This document shows positions 40,732-50,345 of a stretch of 64,000 bases of DNA, one piece after another. The DNA comes from Rubrobacter tropicus (lineage in GTDB: Bacteria > Actinomycetota > Rubrobacteria > Rubrobacterales > Rubrobacteraceae). The number at the start of each line of letters is the position of its first letter. The stretch's first letter is position 1. The position numbers were made by a program, and so were the translations under genes. The DNA lies in the NCBI RefSeq assembly GCF_011492945.1, contig NZ_CP045119.1:1116001-1180000 (forward strand). Direction: 5' to 3'. Below the pieces are notes generated by a model. That model was not told the DNA's origin. It was given only the letters and a program-made list of their open reading frames with translations, and searched no databases.

Positions 40732-41961
40732 TCATGTTCTCCCGGAGACACGCCCGGTCTCGGGCACGCCTACGTCCGTATCGAGGGCGGGTGCCGTGCG
40801 CCCTTTCGGCAGGGACAACGCCACGGCCGGCAGGGCGAGGGCAGCCAGAACGGCGCCGATGAAGTACGGCGCCGGGACGCCGAGGTCGTCGAAGGCGGCC
40901 CCGGCCATTAGCGGGCCTGAGATGAGGGCGAGGCTCAGGACCGCCTGGACGCCCCCCATGAGCCGGCCCTGCTCTTCCGCCGGCGCCCGCCGCGAGAGGA
41001 GCGCCGTGAGGGCCGGTATGGCGAGCCCCGCGCCCACGGCCAGGGCGCCGACGACCGGGTAGAGCAACCACCCGGTTGGCGAGGCGCCGACGAGCGCGAG
41101 GGAGAGCGCCGTGAGAGCGAGCCCGCCGAAGGCGAGCCTCGTCTCGCCGAAAAGTTTCTGCAACCGCCCGACGAGCCCGCCCTGCGTCAGCACGGCGCAC
41201 GCGCCGACGAAGGCGAAGAAGAACGCGTTCTCCGCAGCCCCCCACCCGAAGCGCGCGCCGGAGAAGAGCGGGAAGTTGGTGAGGAGGCCGGCGAAGGAGA
41301 GGTTCAGGAGGAAGACGGCGAGGAGGAGCGGGCCCGTGCCGCCCATCCTTACCGTCCTGACGAGCCCGGAGAACGGGTCGAGGCGGAGGAGCGCCGTGCG
41401 GGTGCGGCGGCCTTCGGGCAAGGACTCCGGCAGGACGAAGAGGCCGAAGGCCGCGTTCAGGAGCGCGAGGGCGGAGGCGGCGAAGGCCGGGGCCTGGAGG
41501 GACTGGAGGCTCAGGAGGCCGCCGAGCAGGGGGCCCGCCATCAGGCCGAGCCCGAAGGCCGCCCCGAGGAGGCCGAGGCCCTTTGCCCGATCCTCTGGTG
41601 CGGTGCTGTCCGCCATGAAAGCCTGGGCCGTCGCCTGCGTCCCGGCCGCGGCCCCGGCGAGCGCCACGGCGACCACGACCATGGCGAAGGTCCCGGCCAG
41701 CCCGAGCAGCGCGTACGCGAGGGAGGCGCCGAGGAGGCAGGTCACCAGGACGGGCCGGCGTCCGACGCGGTCGGAGAGGCCGGCGAGGAAGGGCCCGCCG
41801 AAGAACTGCATCGCCGCGTAGAGAGACCCGAGTATCCCGACCAGGAACGCGCCGTTCGCGAGCCCGCCCGCGTAGAAAGGCAGGAGCGGGACCACGAGGC
41901 CGTAGCCCAGCATGTCCACGAAGACCGTCACGAACAGGAAGGTCGTCGCGGGGCGGCGCAT
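40732..41961 (-). CDS. major facilitator superfamily efflux transporter
   Basis: 409 aa, 12 helices. The MFS loop 2-3 signature GLSDRVGRRPVLV and the antiporter-type motif GLLGAAFGLGLMAGPLLGG in helix 5 place it near the TetA/drug:H+ antiporter-1 family. Substrate unknown. Its ATG is two bases beyond the stop of the upstream acyltransferase gene, so the two are coupled. No regulator is adjacent. Confidence 0.9.
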   Translation of the reverse strand: MRRPATTFLFVTVFVDMLGYGLVVPLLPFYAGGLANGAFLVGILGSLYAAMQFFGGPFLAGLSDRVGRRPVLVTCLLGASLAYALLGLAGTFAMVVVAVALAGAAAGTQATAQAFMADSTAPEDRAKGLGLLGAAFGLGLMAGPLLGGLLSLQSLQAPAFAASALALLNAAFGLFVLPESLPEGRRTRTALLRLDPFSGLVRTVRMGGTGPLLLAVFLLNLSFAGLLTNFPLFSGARFGWGAAENAFFFAFVGACAVLTQGGLVGRLQKLFGETRLAFGGLALTALSLALVGASPTGWLLYPVVGALAVGAGLAIPALTALLSRRAPAEEQGRLMGGVQAVLSLALISGPLMAGAAFDDLGVPAPYFIGAVLAALALPAVALSLPKGRTAPALDTDVGVPETGRVSGRT

Positions 41962-41963
41962 CG

Positions 41964-42932
41964 CTAGCTTGCCCCCAGCCGTTCTATGATGCGTCGGGCC
42001 TCCTCGATCGTCCTGCGGCTCACGGGGCCGCCTTCACCGGCGCGCAGCGGTGGGCCGAACTCGACGCGGGTGGTTACGTTCCTGAGGGCCGGCACGAGCA
42101 TCTGGAGCGTGGCCGAAAGCCAAGCGCGGTCGCTCGGGGCGCGGCGGAGAAGGGCGATGGGGTTGCGGAGCGCGGAGGCCGAGATCACGCCGCTCACGAC
42201 GGCCGGGACGACCGTGAGGCCCGGGACGAGCCGGGCGAACACGTCCACGCTCCCCGACCAGGCTTCGAGCGCCTCGGACGCCCCCGGCAACACCGCCGGG
42301 TCGGGCTCTATCCTGCCGCCGGGGAACGTGATGACGGAGCCGCCGCTTCGCAGGTGGCGGGCCGCCGTTCTGGCTGCGCCCGGACGGCCGTTCGGGGTGT
42401 CGGGGACCGGGATCAGGGCCCGCGTGGTGTTCGGGAGGGCTGAGAGGAAGGGCCGTTCGGCGGCGATCACCCTCAGGTCGTTCCTCGGCATCGCGGCGAA
42501 GAGGGCCACGGCGTCGGCGAGGCCCGGATGGTTCGACACGACGAGCAGCGGTCCTTCGCGCGGAATGCGGTCCGCGCCCTCGACCACGACGCCGCGGGAC
42601 ATCTGATCCAGGGCCCAGGCACCGCCCGCCGGAAGGCCCGATTCCCCGACGATGTCGTCGTAGGTCGAGATCTGGCCCGCCAGCCGCCGCGCCGGGACGG
42701 AAGAGAGGAACTCGAGAAACGACCGGACGGCGCCCGGTCCAAGATTCCCCAGCCCGAAAGCGGAGATCAGGTCCTCCACGCAGACCTCCGCCAGCGCCCG
42801 GATGCGCTCTTCGCGGGCCGGTGTCCGCGCCGGGGCCGCGATGGGCAGCGTGTGCGTGTTTTCCAGAGCGTTTCTCCCTGTTGTGTGATCCACCGGCAGC
42901 CCAAGTATGGAACCGAACGGGCGAAGGCTCAT
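41964..42932 (-). CDS. PlsC-type acyltransferase
   Basis: 322 aa. Acyltransferase block I VVSNHPGLADAVALF carries the catalytic HxxxxD, with block III-like VITFPGGRIEPDP downstream. The N-terminal 100 residues contain helices rather than a signal peptide. It is likely to acylate a glycerophosphate- or lyso-lipid-type acceptor. It sits directly upstream of an MFS gene, an arrangement reminiscent of lysophospholipid transporter/acyltransferase pairs, though the MFS here is drug-exporter-like. Confidence 0.82.
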   Translation of the reverse strand: MSLRPFGSILGLPVDHTTGRNALENTHTLPIAAPARTPAREERIRALAEVCVEDLISAFGLGNLGPGAVRSFLEFLSSVPARRLAGQISTYDDIVGESGLPAGGAWALDQMSRGVVVEGADRIPREGPLLVVSNHPGLADAVALFAAMPRNDLRVIAAERPFLSALPNTTRALIPVPDTPNGRPGAARTAARHLRSGGSVITFPGGRIEPDPAVLPGASEALEAWSGSVDVFARLVPGLTVVPAVVSGVISASALRNPIALLRRAPSDRAWLSATLQMLVPALRNVTTRVEFGPPLRAGEGGPVSRRTIEEARRIIERLGAS

Positions 42933-43034: not shown

Positions 43035-43415
43035 TCAGGGCCTGCGGCGCAGGATCTCGACGGCCGAGCCGTCTAGCACGGTGTCGCCGAGCCTCACGTT
43101 CGGTTTTTTTACCTTTACCCGCACGGCTTCGACGAGCGGGTGCTCTTCCAGGGTCGCGTTCGCTATGCGCTCCGCGACGGTCTCGGTGAGGCCGACGGGC
43201 TCGCCTTCGACCACTTGCTTCGCGAGGCCGTGGACCTCGCCGTAATCCACGGTCTTGGTCAGGTCGTCCGAGAGGCCCGCGGGCCTGAGGTCCAGGCTGA
43301 GCTCGACGTCGACGACGAAGGGTTGTCCGAGCTCGCGCTCGGCCGCCAGGGTGCCGTGACGGCCGTGGAAGATCATGCCTTCCAGGAGAATGCGGTCGTG
43401 GGTCTCACCGTTCAT
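43035..43415 (-). CDS. folB: dihydroneopterin aldolase
   Basis: 126 aa from ATG 43415. Family features: RILLEGMIFHGRHGTLAAER at the N-terminus, the substrate-binding segment TKTVDYGEVHGLAKQVVEGE and the catalytic lysine in VRVKVKKPN. Converts 7,8-dihydroneopterin to 6-hydroxymethyl-dihydropterin and glycolaldehyde in folate synthesis. No folP or folK is adjacent. It is divergent, about 95 bp apart, from an operon with RibD_C-like and PTPS-like genes, so a role in a dedicated pterin pathway is possible. The longer upstream frame has no support. Confidence 0.88.
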   Translation of the reverse strand: MNGETHDRILLEGMIFHGRHGTLAAERELGQPFVVDVELSLDLRPAGLSDDLTKTVDYGEVHGLAKQVVEGEPVGLTETVAERIANATLEEHPLVEAVRVKVKKPNVRLGDTVLDGSAVEILRRRP

Positions 43416-43509
43416 CCGGCGCAGTATAGGGCCCGGTGGCACCCCCGCGCCAGCGGGTCTCAGGTCGCCCGTGCTAACCTTCCGTGTGGTGGAGTGAGAG
43501 GAGAAGCCC

Positions 43510-44202
43510 ATCGAACGCCCGGCCATCACCGTTAGCTACGCCCAGACCCTCGACGGCCGCCTGGCGACCCTGGACGGGAGCTCGCAGTGGATCAGCGCCC
43601 CCGACTCGCTCTGCTTCTCCCACGAGCTGCGCGCCTCGCACGACGCCGTCATGGTCGGCGTGGGAACGGTGATACGGGACGACCCGCGCCTGACCGTCCG
43701 CCTGGCCCGGGGCGAGAACCCCCTCCGGATCGTCGTGGACAGCTCCCTGCGGACCCCGACGAGCGCGGCGGTTCTGGCCGGAGGCGCGGCCAAGGGAACC
43801 GTTCTGGCCGTAACCGGCCGCGCCGCAGTAGCACGCTGCGGGGAGGCGGAGTCGCTGGGAGCCACGGTCCTGCGGCTTCCCCCCGGCCCCGGTGGCGGGG
43901 TGGATCTCGGGGCGCTACTGCGCCGTCTGGACGGCCTCGGGGTACGCTCCGTGATGGTCGAGGGAGGCGCGACCCTGATAACAGCCCTCCTGCGCGAAGA
44001 GCTCGTGGATCGCCTGGCGGTCTGCGTGGCGCCGAAGATTCTCGGCGCCGGGATAGAGGCCGTCGGCGACCTCGGCATCAGGGACCTCGCGAGGTCCATC
44101 TCCCTGACGGACGTAACCTTCACGCCGCGCGGCGGGGACCTGCTCCTCGACGGGCGCGTCGAGTACCCGGCGGATCGGGATGAGGTCAGCCGCGCGGGAT
44201 AG
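43510..44202 (+). CDS. RibD C-terminal domain reductase
   Basis: 230 aa. Matches the stand-alone RibD_C/DHFR-like reductase: RPAITVSYAQTLDGRLAT, SQWISAPDSL, ASHDAVMVGVGTVIRDDPRL and SVMVEGGATLITALL. It reduces a pyrimidine or pterin intermediate with NADPH. The conserved start of the domain lies upstream of every ATG, GTG or TTG in frame (the first is 43651, 47 residues in). An in-frame TGA at 43495 limits the start; AGAGGAG at 43497-43503 is followed six bases later by ATC 43510, which is the likely initiator. Its 3' end overlaps the next gene by 23 bp. Confidence 0.8.
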   Translation: MERPAITVSYAQTLDGRLATLDGSSQWISAPDSLCFSHELRASHDAVMVGVGTVIRDDPRLTVRLARGENPLRIVVDSSLRTPTSAAVLAGGAAKGTVLAVTGRAAVARCGEAESLGATVLRLPPGPGGGVDLGALLRRLDGLGVRSVMVEGGATLITALLREELVDRLAVCVAPKILGAGIEAVGDLGIRDLARSISLTDVTFTPRGGDLLLDGRVEYPADRDEVSRAG

Positions 44203-45220
44203 CCTGAAAGCGACGGCCCTCTGGTTCCCCGCCAGGCGCGTCGCACAGCTGCGCCCGGAGACCGTCCCGGTCCCCGGACAGGGCGAGGTGCGCGTCAGGG
44301 CGGTCCTCTCGGCGGTGAGCCACGGCACCGAGATGCTCGTCTACCGGGGCGAGGTTCCGGAAGACCTGTCGCTCGACCTGCCCACCTTCGCCGGGGGCTT
44401 TTCGTTCCCGATAAAGCACGGCTACGCCTCGGCCGGCCGCGTCCTGGACACGGGGCCGGGCGTCGAGAACCTCGCGCCCGGCGACCCCGTCTTCGTCCAC
44501 CACCCGCACCAGGACGTCTTCACCGTTCCGGCGGACCTCCCGGTGCGCCTGCCCGGGGACCTGGATCTCTCGCGGGCCGTCTTCTTCGCGAACATGGAGA
44601 CCGCCCTCAACGTGGTCCACGATTCCCCGGCGCGCCTCGGGGAGACTGCCCTGGTCTTCGGTCAGGGCGTGGTCGGGTTGCTCGTAACCCGGCTCCTCAA
44701 GATGTCCGGCACCTCTGTCCTAGCCGTCGAGCCCGTACCCGAACGCCGAGAGCTCGCCCTGAAGATGGGCGCGGACGCGGTTTTCGGGCCGGACGAGGAC
44801 CCGAAGGGGCGCGTATTCGCGGCGACGGGCGGGCGCGGGGCCGACGTCGCGGTCGAGGCCAGCGGGTCGGGCGCCGCGCTGGCGGCGGCCGTGGAGTGCG
44901 TGGCGGTCGAGGGGACGGTTGTGGCGGCGTCCTGGTACGGGAAGAAGGAGGTCGGGCTCCCGTTGGGCGGACGGTTTCACCGGGGAAGGGTGAAGATAAA
45001 GTCGTCGCAGGTCGGACGGATGACCCCGGAGCTTGGGGCGCGTTGGGACCGCGGGCGGAGGGCCGAGGCCGTGATCTCGTTGCTCCAAGACCCGCTGCTC
45101 CCGCTCGATTCGTTCGTCTCCCACCGGGTACCGTTCGGGGAGGCGCCCGGCGTCTACGGGATGCTCGACCGGGGCGACGTCGGGGCCGTGCAGGTGGTCT
45201 TTGATTACGGGGAGGCTTGA
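44180..45220 (+). CDS. zinc-site-deficient medium-chain dehydrogenase (MDR)
   Basis: 346 aa. MDR fold with the nucleotide motif TALVFGQGVVGLLVTRLLKM and FPIKHGYASAGRVLDTGPGV. At the catalytic zinc position the usual CGTD is SHGTEMLVYRG, and the His-Glu of GHE is replaced (HGYASAG), so classical alcohol-dehydrogenase zinc chemistry is unlikely; the SHGTE variant is shared with BchC-like enzymes. Overlaps RibD_C upstream and the PTPS-like gene downstream. A reduction step on the cluster product is inferred. Confidence 0.82.
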   Translation: MRSAARDSLKATALWFPARRVAQLRPETVPVPGQGEVRVRAVLSAVSHGTEMLVYRGEVPEDLSLDLPTFAGGFSFPIKHGYASAGRVLDTGPGVENLAPGDPVFVHHPHQDVFTVPADLPVRLPGDLDLSRAVFFANMETALNVVHDSPARLGETALVFGQGVVGLLVTRLLKMSGTSVLAVEPVPERRELALKMGADAVFGPDEDPKGRVFAATGGRGADVAVEASGSGAALAAAVECVAVEGTVVAASWYGKKEVGLPLGGRFHRGRVKIKSSQVGRMTPELGARWDRGRRAEAVISLLQDPLLPLDSFVSHRVPFGEAPGVYGMLDRGDVGAVQVVFDYGEA

Positions 45221-45600
45221 TGTACGAGGTATACGTCGCGGCGTCTTTCGAGGCGGCCCATCGCCTCAGAGGCGAGCATTTCGGGCCCGCGGCCCGCACC
45301 CACGGCCACACGTACAGGCTGGAAGCGGTGGTGCGCGGGGAAAATCTGGCTGAAGACGGCACCCTGTTCGACATAGGTGTGCTCCGCGAGACGGTCGACG
45401 GCGTCGCCGCCTCCCTGCACTACCGGGATCTCGACGAGGTTCCGGGGCTCGCCGGCAAGAACACCACGGCCGAGGTCGTGGCGGGTTTCTGTTGGGATGG
45501 GATTTCGCCCTCCCTCCGAGGCCGCGGCCTCGCCTCGCTTGCGGTCCGCGTCTGGGAGTCGCCGCAGGTCTACGCCGCCCGCGAAGGGGCCCTCGACTGA
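45220..45600 (+). CDS. 6-pyruvoyltetrahydropterin synthase/QueD-family protein without catalytic Cys
   Basis: 126 aa from ATG 45220, whose A is the last base of the previous stop (TGATG). The zinc triad is intact: H14 in FEAAHRL, H28 and H30 in THGHTYRLE; E85 lies in KNTTAEVVAGF. The catalytic cysteine four residues before HGH (CxxxHGH) is Ala24 here, so normal PTPS or QueD chemistry should be impaired or altered. It may perform a lyase or isomerase step on a dihydroneopterin-type substrate. Part of the RibD_C-MDR-PTPS-GT-MT operon. Confidence 0.85.
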   Translation: MYEVYVAASFEAAHRLRGEHFGPAARTHGHTYRLEAVVRGENLAEDGTLFDIGVLRETVDGVAASLHYRDLDEVPGLAGKNTTAEVVAGFCWDGISPSLRGRGLASLAVRVWESPQVYAAREGALD

Positions 45601-45602
45601 CC

Positions 45603-46646
45603 GTGCGCCTCGCGTTCGTCACGGTCGGGGACGCGGCCCGTCTCACGGGGGGCTACCTGTACAACAGGCGCCTTCTCGAAGGGCTAAAGGAGAACGGTGC
45701 GAAGGTAGAGGTCTTCGTCCCCTGCGGTGCGGACCCGCGGGCCCAGGCCGCGGCAGCACCTGCTTTCGGAAACGTGTTCGACCCCGCCCCCTTCGACGCG
45801 GTCGTGGTCGACGCCCTGGCCCGCGTCGTCGTCGCCCCACACCTCGATCGCTGGCGGTCGGGCCGCCCGGTCGTCGCGCTGGTACACGAACTGCCAGGTG
45901 TCGCGGACCCTGCCGCGTCCGACCGGGAGCGCCCGTTCGAGGCGCCCATCCTCCGGTCCGACCGGATCGTCGCCGTGAGCGACCACGGAAAAGAGGTTCT
46001 GCTAAAGAGGGGCGCCCCCGCCGCCCGCGTCCGCGTGGTACCGCCCGGTTTCGACGGGTTGGGGCGCGGTCTCGAAAGGGGGCTTCTTCGTGAAGGGCCC
46101 CCGCGCGTCCTGTGCGTGGCGCAGTGGATCCCACGCAAAGGCGTCCTCGACCTGGTCCGGGCCTGGGGTACGAAAGATACGCCCGGGGCCATGCTCGACC
46201 TCGTGGGCGAGACGGACGCCGACGCCCCTTACGCGACAAAGGTGCGCGAGGCCGCGTCCTACGACCCTTCCATCCTCGTACACGGCCCCGTAGACGATGA
46301 CACCCTGGCCGGTCTCTATGCCTCGGCCTACATCTTCGCGCTGCCATCCCGTTACGAGGGCTACGGCATCGTCTACGCAGAGGCGCTCTCCTTTGGGCTT
46401 CCCGTCGTCGCCTGCACCGTCGGGCCCGTCCCCGAGGTCGTCGGCGATGGGACAGGCCTGCTCGTCCCGGCCGGCGATCCGGAAGCCCTCTCCGACGCGC
46501 TGGACCGGCTCCTCTCCGACGCCGGCCTCAGGGAGAAGATGTCCGCCGCCGCGCTCCAGAGGGCCGCCGGCCTTCCGCGCTGGAGGGACACGGTGGACGG
46601 GTTCCTCGCCGCGTTGGGGGAAATCGTAGAGGAGCGGGGGAGGTGA
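45603..46646 (+). CDS. family 4 glycosyltransferase
   Basis: 347 aa from GTG 45603, two bases after the PTPS-like stop. GT-B fold: TGGYLYNRRLLEGLKENG at the acceptor side, VLCVAQWIPRKGVLDLVRAW opening the donor domain, and the EX7E-type motif in PSRYEGYGIVYAEALSFGLP. It would add a sugar from a nucleotide donor to the cluster product or to a lipid acceptor. The following methyltransferase overlaps by GTGA. No lipid- or wall-polymer genes adjoin, which favours a small-molecule acceptor. Confidence 0.87.
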   Translation: MRLAFVTVGDAARLTGGYLYNRRLLEGLKENGAKVEVFVPCGADPRAQAAAAPAFGNVFDPAPFDAVVVDALARVVVAPHLDRWRSGRPVVALVHELPGVADPAASDRERPFEAPILRSDRIVAVSDHGKEVLLKRGAPAARVRVVPPGFDGLGRGLERGLLREGPPRVLCVAQWIPRKGVLDLVRAWGTKDTPGAMLDLVGETDADAPYATKVREAASYDPSILVHGPVDDDTLAGLYASAYIFALPSRYEGYGIVYAEALSFGLPVVACTVGPVPEVVGDGTGLLVPAGDPEALSDALDRLLSDAGLREKMSAAALQRAAGLPRWRDTVDGFLAALGEIVEERGR

Positions 46647-47545
46647 GCGTCCCGCATCCGGACGGGAGGCTCGACCAGAACCGCCGTTCGTGGAACGCGG
46701 TAGTCGGGGCGCACGACAGCCACCGCGGGGACCTCGCGGGCTTCCTGAAGAACGGTGGTTCCACACTCTTTCCCGAAGAACTCGGGCTTCTGGGGGAACT
46801 GTCGGGACGGGCCGTGGCGCACCTGCAATGCAACTCAGGCGGCGACTCCTTGAGCCTCGCCCTACTCGGAGCAGACGTGACCGGCGTAGACCTCAGCGAC
46901 GGGGCGGTACGCTCCGCCCGGCGCCTCTCCGAAGAGAGCGGCGTGCCGGCCCGGTTCGTCCGGGCCGACGTGTACGAGTGGCTGGCGGAGAACGCGAAGG
47001 GCGAAGAACGATTTGACGCCGTCTTCGCCTCCTACGGCGTCGTCTGCTGGCTTCCCGACCTGAAAACCTGGGCCTGCGGAATAGCCGGCGTCCTGGCGCC
47101 CGGCGGACGCCTGGTGCTCGTGGACTTCCACCCCGCCGCCGACGTTTTCGACGAGGACTGGAACCCGTCGCGCGGTTATCCCGGCGGAGGGGAAAAGACA
47201 ATTCTCGAAGAAGGCGTGGGCGACTACGTGGCCGAATCCGGAGGCGGGCTCACGCCCGCCGGCTTCTCCGACGGTGTCGGCGGGTTCCGGAACCCGGAGC
47301 CGGCGCACCTGTTCCGGTGGGGGCTCGGCGAGGTCGTCAGCGCGCTCGCCGGGGCGGGGCTAAAGATCACGTCCTTCGAAGAGTACCCGTACTCAAACGG
47401 CGAGCGCCACTTCGCCCGAATGCGCGAGGGGTCCGGGCGCCGCATGTTCCCGCCCGAGGATGTTCCCGCCGTCCCCCTGATGTACGGGTTGAGGGCACAC
47501 AAAAACAAAGCCCCGCCCGCGCGACGTCCCCCCACGAACCCGTAG
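46643..47545 (+). CDS. class I SAM-dependent methyltransferase
   Basis: 300 aa, GTG start overlapping the glycosyltransferase stop. SAM motif HLQCNSGGDSLSLALLGADV, acidic loop DLSDGAV, then FDAVFASYGVVCWLPDLKTW and the post-motif GGRLVLVDFHP. The conserved N-terminal WNAVVGAHDSHRGDLAGF is a substrate-lid motif seen in small-molecule methyltransferases. The last residues (APPARRPPTNP) run into a GGGCGGGTT palindrome repeat and look acquired. Terminal step of the pterin-type cluster is inferred. Confidence 0.87.
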   Translation: MSVPHPDGRLDQNRRSWNAVVGAHDSHRGDLAGFLKNGGSTLFPEELGLLGELSGRAVAHLQCNSGGDSLSLALLGADVTGVDLSDGAVRSARRLSEESGVPARFVRADVYEWLAENAKGEERFDAVFASYGVVCWLPDLKTWACGIAGVLAPGGRLVLVDFHPAADVFDEDWNPSRGYPGGGEKTILEEGVGDYVAESGGGLTPAGFSDGVGGFRNPEPAHLFRWGLGEVVSALAGAGLKITSFEEYPYSNGERHFARMREGSGRRMFPPEDVPAVPLMYGLRAHKNKAPPARRPPTNP

Positions 47546-49486: not shown

Positions 49487-49641
49487 GCTGGTCAGCTAGT
49501 CAGCATTTCAGCCTGTCAGCCACGATGCGGACGGCGCGAGGTGGCGCCCCAGACGAACGGACGATGCGAACGTGGCAGGTTTGTGGACGTGAAGACGAGC
49601 CCAAACCAAAAAGCTGAAATGCTGACCAGCTGAAATGACCG
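49487..49641. repeat. heptamer element with inverted arms
   Basis: The left arm GTCAGCATTTCAGC (49499-49512) pairs perfectly with GCTGAAATGCTGAC (49613-49626). The core is 100 bp. It fills the whole space between the PHP and AlaX genes, and the AlaX ATG (49635) is formed by the repeat text AGCTGAAATGACC. Confidence 0.78.
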
Positions 49642-50345
49642 AAGAGCTTTTCCTCAGAGATTCCTACCTCAAGGAGTTCCGAACCGGCGTGAAGAAGGTG
49701 GATGGCCGGGAGGTGGTCCTGTCAGAGACCGCCTTTTTCCCAGGCGGCGGGGGGCAGCCGGCGGACAAGGGGTCTCTGGGCATAGGCCCCGTGAACGCCG
49801 CCGTCGTGGACGCGCGGCGGGAGGGGGGACGTATCGTCCACGTCCTCGACCGGGCCATTCCGGACACGGTGAAAGAGCTGATAGGCGTGCTGGACTGGGA
49901 GAGGCGGTACGCGCACATGCGCTACCACACGGCGCTGCACGTCCTCTCGGGCGTGATCTGGAGAGCGTTCGACGCGAAGGTGACGGGGGGCCAGATGCGC
50001 GCCGACCGGGCGAGGATGGACTTCTCTTTTCCGGGTGAGTGGACGGCGGAGGTCGTCGGAGAGATAGAACGCCTGACCAACGAGGCGCTCGCCGGGAACC
50101 GCTCCGTAAAGGTCTACGAGTTGCCCCGCGAGGAGGCGCTCGGGAACCCGGATCTGATCCGGACCCAGGTAAACCTCGTACCCGAACGCGTAAAGACCAT
50201 CAGGATAGTCGAGATCGAGGGCCTGGACACCCAGGCCGACGGCGGCACCCACGTCGCCGAGACGAGGGAGGTGGGGGAGATCGAGCTTACGGGCCACAAG
50301 AGCAAGGGCCGCCAGAACAAGCGCGTAGAGTTCGTGCTGCGATGA
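49635..50345 (+). CDS. AlaX-type alanyl-tRNA editing protein
   Basis: 236 aa, free-standing homologue of the AlaRS editing domain that hydrolyses Ser- or Gly-tRNA(Ala). Zinc ligands H98 and H102 (HTALH) and H205 (DGGTHVAET) are present; the cysteine of the usual CxGTH motif is D201 here. FFPGGGGQPADKG opens the N-terminal beta barrel that marks the AlaX-M group. ATG 49635 lies in a heptamer repeat and has no RBS, so the start is uncertain. The stop overlaps the ATG of the DUF192 gene. Confidence 0.87.
   Translation: MTEELFLRDSYLKEFRTGVKKVDGREVVLSETAFFPGGGGQPADKGSLGIGPVNAAVVDARREGGRIVHVLDRAIPDTVKELIGVLDWERRYAHMRYHTALHVLSGVIWRAFDAKVTGGQMRADRARMDFSFPGEWTAEVVGEIERLTNEALAGNRSVKVYELPREEALGNPDLIRTQVNLVPERVKTIRIVEIEGLDTQADGGTHVAETREVGEIELTGHKSKGRQNKRVEFVLR

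Follow-up and report, generated by a model that had tools for sequence, protein, structure and literature searches.

The closest described relatives of the genes considered here surround SCO6650 of Streptomyces coelicolor, a T-fold protein of the 6-pyruvoyl-tetrahydropterin synthase (PTPS) type whose structure has been solved [pdb:3d7j]. Nearby lies SCO6655, which we take to be a GTP cyclohydrolase II (GCH II). The AGeNNT 2017 paper gives FGPAQ as the signature of a PTPS-IV group and names PF00925 (GCH II) and PF01872 (RibD_C) as its neighbors (PMC5445326), and the association of PTPS-IV with these two families is therefore already published. We analyzed a stretch of 64 000 nucleotides (the window) from the 4.58-Mb genome of Rubrobacter tropicus, contig NZ_CP045119.1, in which a PTPS-IV gene stands in a five-gene operon divergent from folB; judged by this locus, the nearest relatives are Rubrobacter and uncultured Rubrobacteraceae. 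An earlier interpretation made from the letters alone (the sequence-only reading) had proposed an undescribed pathway to a glycosylated, methylated pterin-like metabolite. All six genes that it named were confirmed at 43035–47545, and their Pfam names agree with its labels:

43510..44202, + strand: RibD_C-type reductase, resembling archaeal ArfC and RIB7 (PF01872, E = 1.9e-48), with a probable ATC start
44180..45220, + strand: zinc-less medium-chain dehydrogenase/reductase (MDR) with SHGTE and KHGY motifs (PF00107, ADH_zinc_N, E = 2.2e-21)
45220..45600, + strand: PTPS-IV T-fold protein, FGPA-HGH (PF01242, E = 2.7e-28), the sole PTPS in the genome
45603..46646, + strand: family 4 glycosyltransferase, GT4 (PF00534, Glycos_transf_1, E = 3.4e-28; also PF13692)
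46643..47545, + strand: class I S-adenosylmethionine-dependent methyltransferase, MTr type (PF13649, Methyltransf_25, E = 3.2e-12)
43035..43412, − strand: FolB, dihydroneopterin aldolase, divergent from the other five (PF02152, E = 1.6e-33)

The SCO6650–SCO6655 locus (AGeNNT cluster-node 62) shares with the window its PTPS subfamily, around which RibD_C and GCH II are reported, and the order MDR–PTPS–GT4–methyltransferase recurs in a Streptomyces-like locus (L048). The Streptomyces and proteobacterial PTPS proteins carry FGPAQ-HGA, however, whereas that of the window carries FGPAA-HGH with all three zinc histidines and is accordingly predicted to bind zinc, the SCO6650 type being reportedly zinc-free. 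Moreover, the window methyltransferase is unrelated, FolB is divergent, and no creatininase, CDP-alcohol phosphatidyltransferase (CDP-OH_P) or LPG_synthase_TM gene is linked to the window locus. The window RibD_C is most similar to reductases of the archaeal and fungal riboflavin branch (ArfC/RIB7) and is, like them, without the lysine found in bacteria, but this genome has a bacterial rib operon, and the window reductase sits with GT4, methyltransferase and PTPS-IV genes. Toxoflavin biosynthesis (ToxA/B/E) reuses GCH II, a RibD-like enzyme and a methyltransferase for a secondary, pteridine-like product. The window operon may work alike, and its methyltransferase matches ToxA in fold, but we do not claim membership; to our knowledge the toxoflavin pathway includes no PTPS, GT4 or MDR. 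In the cyanobacterial tetrahydrobiopterin glucosides a pterin is glycosylated by UDP-glucose:tetrahydrobiopterin glucosyltransferase [pdb:5ze7], to which the window GT4 is weakly similar (E = 4e-4, many other GT4 enzymes matching better), but the window is without a canonical PTPS-II. A full-text literature search, with most subscription papers outside its reach, found no description of the complete cluster or of what it makes. The term ‘undescribed’ can thus be kept, within the papers searched, for the wider architecture and the product, and not for the surroundings of PTPS-IV or for its structure. Judged from the sequences, the pathway is widely conserved, and individual parts of it have been published; its Rubrobacterales variant is set apart by another methyltransferase and by retention of all three zinc ligands.

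The window PTPS belongs, by its residues and matches, to the PTPS-IV (FGPA) group of SCO6650 and not to QueD. Its best sequence match is SCO6650 (E = 1.3e-18 versus 1.5e-9 for QueD), it scores 54 bits against TIGR03367 where the cut-off is 89, and its predicted structure (pLDDT 96.3) is closest in fold to 3d7j (TM 0.93), followed by QueD at ∼0.82. The motif reads FGPAARTHGH, so the published FGPAQ is not exact here (A for Q); FGPA is present in 100 of 102 PTPS open reading frames (ORFs), duplicates included, as FGPA-HGH in 42 and FGPA-HGA in 58. The residues of QueD and PTPS-I (CxxxHGH and Asp-His) are not those of the window protein. Across 32 aligned relatives the column of the catalytic cysteine is always alanine, His71 is always tyrosine or phenylalanine, and Asp70 is kept in four; two of the zinc histidines are invariant and the third is retained in 19, including the window protein. 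A glutamate conserved in all 32 (E113 in A4) is presumably the pterin anchor. With the catalytic triad lost, the ‘QueD-like’ of the sequence-only reading fails as a statement of function.

The five genes are one conserved unit. Conservation was assessed in 96 distinct PTPS-IV loci, made up of 20 fetched regions, 80 loci from a scan of a genome collection with a PTPS alignment and the window, less four duplicates (L053, L056, L058 and L061) and a Cys-type control (L050). The scan loci are the best 80 of 550 relatives and are biased towards window-like sequences; lineage groups were assigned by us, and L059, L074 and L076 are filed under other phylum names. Several phyla are represented among the 96 loci, with GT4 found in 93, MDR in 89, RibD_C in 78 and a methyltransferase of any kind in 75. 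GCH II and CDP-OH_P are each present in 43, LPG_synthase_TM in 31, creatininase and FolB in 29 each and a PlsC-type acyltransferase in 24. By comparison, five control loci with Cys-type PTPS, which are short (∼3.3 kb at most), had MDR, GT4 or RibD_C nearby in no case, and the same search found MDR and GT4 in 25 of 25 PTPS-IV loci. All six genes, FolB included, occur together in 15 of the 20 fetched regions; L037 and L051 hold partial sets at contig ends, and the distant L048–L050 lack the full six. Of 36 family genomes, 21 carry both PTPS-IV and the methyltransferase ortholog, two have PTPS-IV without the methyltransferase, none has the methyltransferase without PTPS-IV and 13 have neither, a co-occurrence that exceeds chance (Fisher 4.5e-8). 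Two genomes counted under ‘neither’ (G005 and G014) are probably positive, as their FolB–RibD_C genes stand near a contig end.

Among the best 80 of 550 relatives the carriers include Rubrobacteraceae, Chloroflexota, Halomonadaceae, Streptomyces, Micromonospora, Gemmatimonadota and others, so that the co-conservation expected from the sequence-only reading reaches far beyond the Actinobacteria. Isolates of Streptomyces, Halomonas/Vreelandella and Methyloversatilis are cultured carriers. A search for further recurrent neighbors in 43 representative loci of our choosing gave no trusted new cross-phylum family beyond those named; it also returned several unlabeled groups of recurrent ORFs, a large share of which are shadow frames. 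A compact set, MDR–PTPS–GT4–methyltransferase–cytochrome b–RibD–CDP-OH_P, was observed on a Thiodictyon plasmid (L179, 6960–12876) with transposase genes on both sides, and it is possible that this is a minimal mobile version of the pathway.

The likely substrate of the operon is indicated by its RibD_C. This is a single-domain protein with no deaminase domain, and its best solved relatives are the 2,5-diamino-6-ribosylaminopyrimidinone phosphate reductases 6p8c (E = 1.5e-33) and 2azn (E = 2.1e-32), ahead of RibD/RibG at 8e-20. Against TIGR01508 it scores 145 bits, under the equivalog cut-off of 186. PMC3631187 places lysine at the C2-recognition position in bacteria, asparagine in archaea and threonine in fungi, and reports that T35K in ScRIB7 shifts preference from 2,5-diamino-6-ribosylamino-4(3H)-pyrimidinone 5′-phosphate (DAROPP) to AROPP. 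By the motif definitions of the same source, the NADPH motif G-x-G-T-x3-D and the catalytic motif E-G-G are intact in the window protein. At the lysine position the cluster enzymes have Gln (35), Ser (30), His (7), Ala (4) or Cys (1), and lysine in none of 77; the window enzyme has serine, and lysine is present in the housekeeping RibD that this genome also encodes. As the AROPP-selecting lysine is missing, the enzyme probably reduces DAROPP, skipping deamination and diverting flow from riboflavin. This supports a route that starts from GTP-derived pyrimidines, in keeping with the GTP-derived origin proposed in the sequence-only reading. As a separate observation, this genome (G000) holds, outside the window, a concentration of DHFR/RibD_C-like reductases at C1:2469493–2496372, where 7 of its 14 RibD_C-family matches fall within 27 kb.

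A linked GTP cyclohydrolase, which the sequence-only reading had suggested looking for, is common among the relatives. GCH II is near 43 of the 96 loci, including one in the same genus (L042); in L064 and L076 it lies directly upstream of RibD_C–MDR–PTPS–GT4 in a single operon, and in L132 it forms a single frame with RibD_C. The window locus has no GCH II (PF00925), the single copy being elsewhere in the genome in a rib operon of RibD, riboflavin synthase, RibBA and RibH, where RibD and the GCH II domain were named by searches and the other genes by reading of the sequence. FolE and FolK are also encoded elsewhere, and there is no creatininase in this genome. The earlier statement that no folate, riboflavin or queuosine genes accompany the cluster is thus not quite right, the adjoining gene being the only folB of the genome. 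Archaeal ArfB is a deformylase, and by analogy the creatininase-family proteins of 29 loci could be deformylases. A change of tyrosine to methionine in SCO6655 reportedly leaves its product formylated (Spoonamore/Bandarian). We take the catalytic tyrosine to be residue 105 of the Escherichia coli enzyme, and methionine there to mark a FAPy-forming type that works with a deformylase. The 46 GCH II ORFs in the loci comprise 40 with tyrosine (26 of them in creatininase loci), two with methionine, one with leucine and three that are fragments or misaligned. Tyrosine is present in the RibBA of this genome and in L042, and methionine only in the Streptomyces-type L048 and L130, both with creatininase. 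A strict pairing of creatininase with FAPy-forming GCH II is unsupported: given the 26 tyrosine ORFs in creatininase loci, the Tyr/Met switch alone cannot explain creatininase.

The remaining three enzymes would act after RibD_C. In 88 of 92 related MDR ORFs ‘S.GTE’ replaces the CGxD of the zinc enzymes and GHE occurs in one, so the zinc-less assignment of the sequence-only reading holds on motif grounds. GT4 and methyltransferase are one ORF in 22 distinct loci, six from Rubrobacteraceae and 16 of Halomonas type, and because of these fusions we infer that the two act together, at a late stage. The decoration that had been proposed is upheld to that extent, a glycosylated and methylated pterin as such being an extrapolation from it. 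The window-type methyltransferase is conserved across Rubrobacteraceae and Chloroflexota. Its fold neighbors include CcbJ and ToxA, at TM ∼0.5 and with many families at similar E, a resemblance to so many small-molecule enzymes that it does not fix the site of methylation. A common origin of the Rubrobacteraceae- and Halomonas-type methyltransferases was considered and not seen (profile probability 0.3%).

Taken together, the explanation that we favor, with somewhat better than even confidence, is that the operon branches off the riboflavin route and converts GTP to a decorated small molecule. GCH II, supplied here by the RibBA of the rib operon and in many relatives by a dedicated copy, would yield DAROPP, which RibD_C would reduce to the ribityl compound (DARIPP) without deamination. 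The MDR would then oxidize a side-chain hydroxyl; if this were at C2′ the result would be a 1-amino-pentulose, the same compound that GTP cyclohydrolase I forms internally by Amadori rearrangement. N5 could close on the ketone to give a ring of the 7,8-dihydroneopterin type, in the pterin pocket of a PTPS-IV that has lost its nucleophile, and glycosylation by GT4 and methylation by the methyltransferase would follow. The genes, co-conservation, fusions, lost catalytic residues and RibD_C specificity residue are the sequence-based part of this scheme. Confidence differs between its parts: that the product is a GTP-derived, glycosylated and methylated diaminopyrimidine or pteridine is rather probable and the substrate of RibD_C is likely assigned, whereas the position of MDR oxidation and the ring closure are speculative and the split Amadori step at C2′ is doubtful. 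Several observations weigh against the scheme. RibD_C was not found in 18 of the 96 loci; contig ends truncate some of these, whereas others, such as L048 and L130, are not cut in this way. Supply of the substrate has to be assumed, as GCH II and creatininase genes are both absent from the window locus, and the link between the Tyr/Met switch and creatininase is weak. PTPS-IV may catalyze another reaction or merely bind. The CDP-OH_P and flippase-like genes of other phyla are unexplained by a soluble product. Finally, were the product plain dihydroneopterin phosphate, the route would be redundant with FolE; the redundancy would be avoided if, for instance, the two products differed in stereochemistry, in phosphate state or in the site of oxidation.

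Nearly as likely as ring closure through C2′, and thus itself tentative, is a product that retains the ribityl group on N8, such as an 8-ribityl pteridine, an azapteridine or a lumazine analog, PTPS-IV and MDR then building or reducing the second ring instead of forming it from the ribityl chain. Toxoflavin and F420 both branch from riboflavin intermediates, GCH II and RibD_C would be the first two riboflavin-type steps, and ToxA, an N-methyltransferase, is among the fold neighbors of the window methyltransferase together with CcbJ. That match is generic, however, and the 43 representative loci contain no recurrent neighbor gene that would supply the two extra ring atoms. An anchored product, in which a pteridine or pyrimidine head group is carried on a lipid and exported, is also possible at a low level of confidence. 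The CDP-OH_P and LPG_synthase_TM genes of Proteobacteria and Streptomyces, the former also annotated in plasmid examples, would then be analogous to PlsC and the major facilitator superfamily (MFS) transporter of Rubrobacteraceae; PlsC is linked in 21 of the 23 Rubrobacteraceae loci and in 3 of the 15 Chloroflexota-like ones. CDP-OH_P is lacking, though, from 53 of the 96 loci, a number of which are truncated by contig ends, and PlsC, which lies beside FolB on the strand opposite to the operon, may be an incidental neighbor. A still more ambitious combination, to which we give less credence, would be a pterin route independent of GTP cyclohydrolase I in several phyla, with RibD_C and the zinc-less MDR replacing the Amadori rearrangement, PTPS-IV closing the ring, and the glycosylated, methylated product being lipid-attached and exported in many lineages as an envelope pterin cofactor or pigment.

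The readings tied to established pterin and deazaflavin pathways are far less probable than any of these. PMC5041015 links PTPS-IV to coenzyme F420 as an unpublished statement, and CofE is indeed encoded in 7 of 17 tested genomes with the cluster, including this one, but it has no match in the other 10, all Proteobacteria; an F420 role cannot be general and is very improbable. Equally hard to credit is that the operon supplies aromatic amino acid hydroxylases with a biopterin-like cofactor, or that it acts with FolB as a folate backup. FolB adjoins 29 of the 96 loci, but PF00351 was found in none of 60 relatives, FolE and FolK are present and FolB can be separated from the cluster, so that both proposals are rejected or strongly lowered. 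Least probable of all is a queuosine or preQ0 role with PTPS acting as QueD. Relatives are publicly annotated as 6-carboxytetrahydropterin synthase with queuosine as the process, yet the residue losses in all 32 proteins and the low TIGR03367 score refute the assignment in that form.

FolB, which the sequence-only reading had counted as a member, is probably a housekeeping enzyme separable from the cluster. One locus (L051) has the cluster with no adjoining FolB, and one genome (G009) retains FolB without the cluster. In the operons of several Chloroflexota-like loci FolB is co-directional, and a role there is therefore possible, though unneeded in most lineages. Downstream of FolB on the − strand (40732–42932) come an MFS transporter and the acyltransferase:

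41964..42932, − strand: PlsC-type acyltransferase adjoining FolB (PF01553), membership uncertain

Relatives of this MFS protein occur in four Rubrobacteraceae and two Chloroflexota-like loci of the 43 representatives. CDP-alcohol phosphatidyltransferase and the flippase-like membrane protein belong to Proteobacteria and Streptomyces loci.

The gene starts modify one detail of the sequence-only reading, which had described overlaps of 1–23 bp throughout. Three junctions do overlap, RibD_C/MDR by 23 bp, MDR/PTPS by 1 bp (ATG at 45220) and GT4/methyltransferase by 4 bp. For GT4 the most likely start is GTG 45603, two bases past the PTPS stop, and the PTPS/GT4 junction is therefore without overlap. 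The RibD_C frame opens past a TGA at 43495–43497 and has no ATG, GTG or TTG before 43651, a position already inside the domain. As standard starts are absent and AGGAG precedes an ATC at 43510, this rare codon is probably the start; ATC or ATA stands at the equivalent site in some relatives, for which alternative starts are also possible. The most likely FolB start is ATG 43412, leaving a divergent spacer of ∼97 bp that contains the following:

43472..43481, + strand: TGCTAACCTT, conserved extended −10-like element, from a comparison of 22 related loci

This sequence resembles an extended −10 element of the operon. It occurs exactly six times in the 22 loci, both strands scanned, each time just upstream of RibD_C; looser forms exist in several further related loci and none in some relatives. 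A scan with the sigma-70 consensus detected no promoter, and the element emerged from the comparison of loci instead. Elsewhere in the window, 49635–50345 encodes a 236-aa protein with the second additional domain of alanyl-tRNA synthetase (tRNA_SAD) and little other synthetase sequence, probably a trans-editing protein.

The retention of this gene set in such distant lineages suggests that its product is generally useful. If the scheme is correct, a class of cofactors or pigments awaits isolation, and PTPS-IV, for which 3d7j has provided a structure without a function, would gain a substrate. RibD_C and GCH II anchor the first two steps of the pathway, which are directly assayable. Public records label the PTPS of the cluster as a queuosine enzyme.

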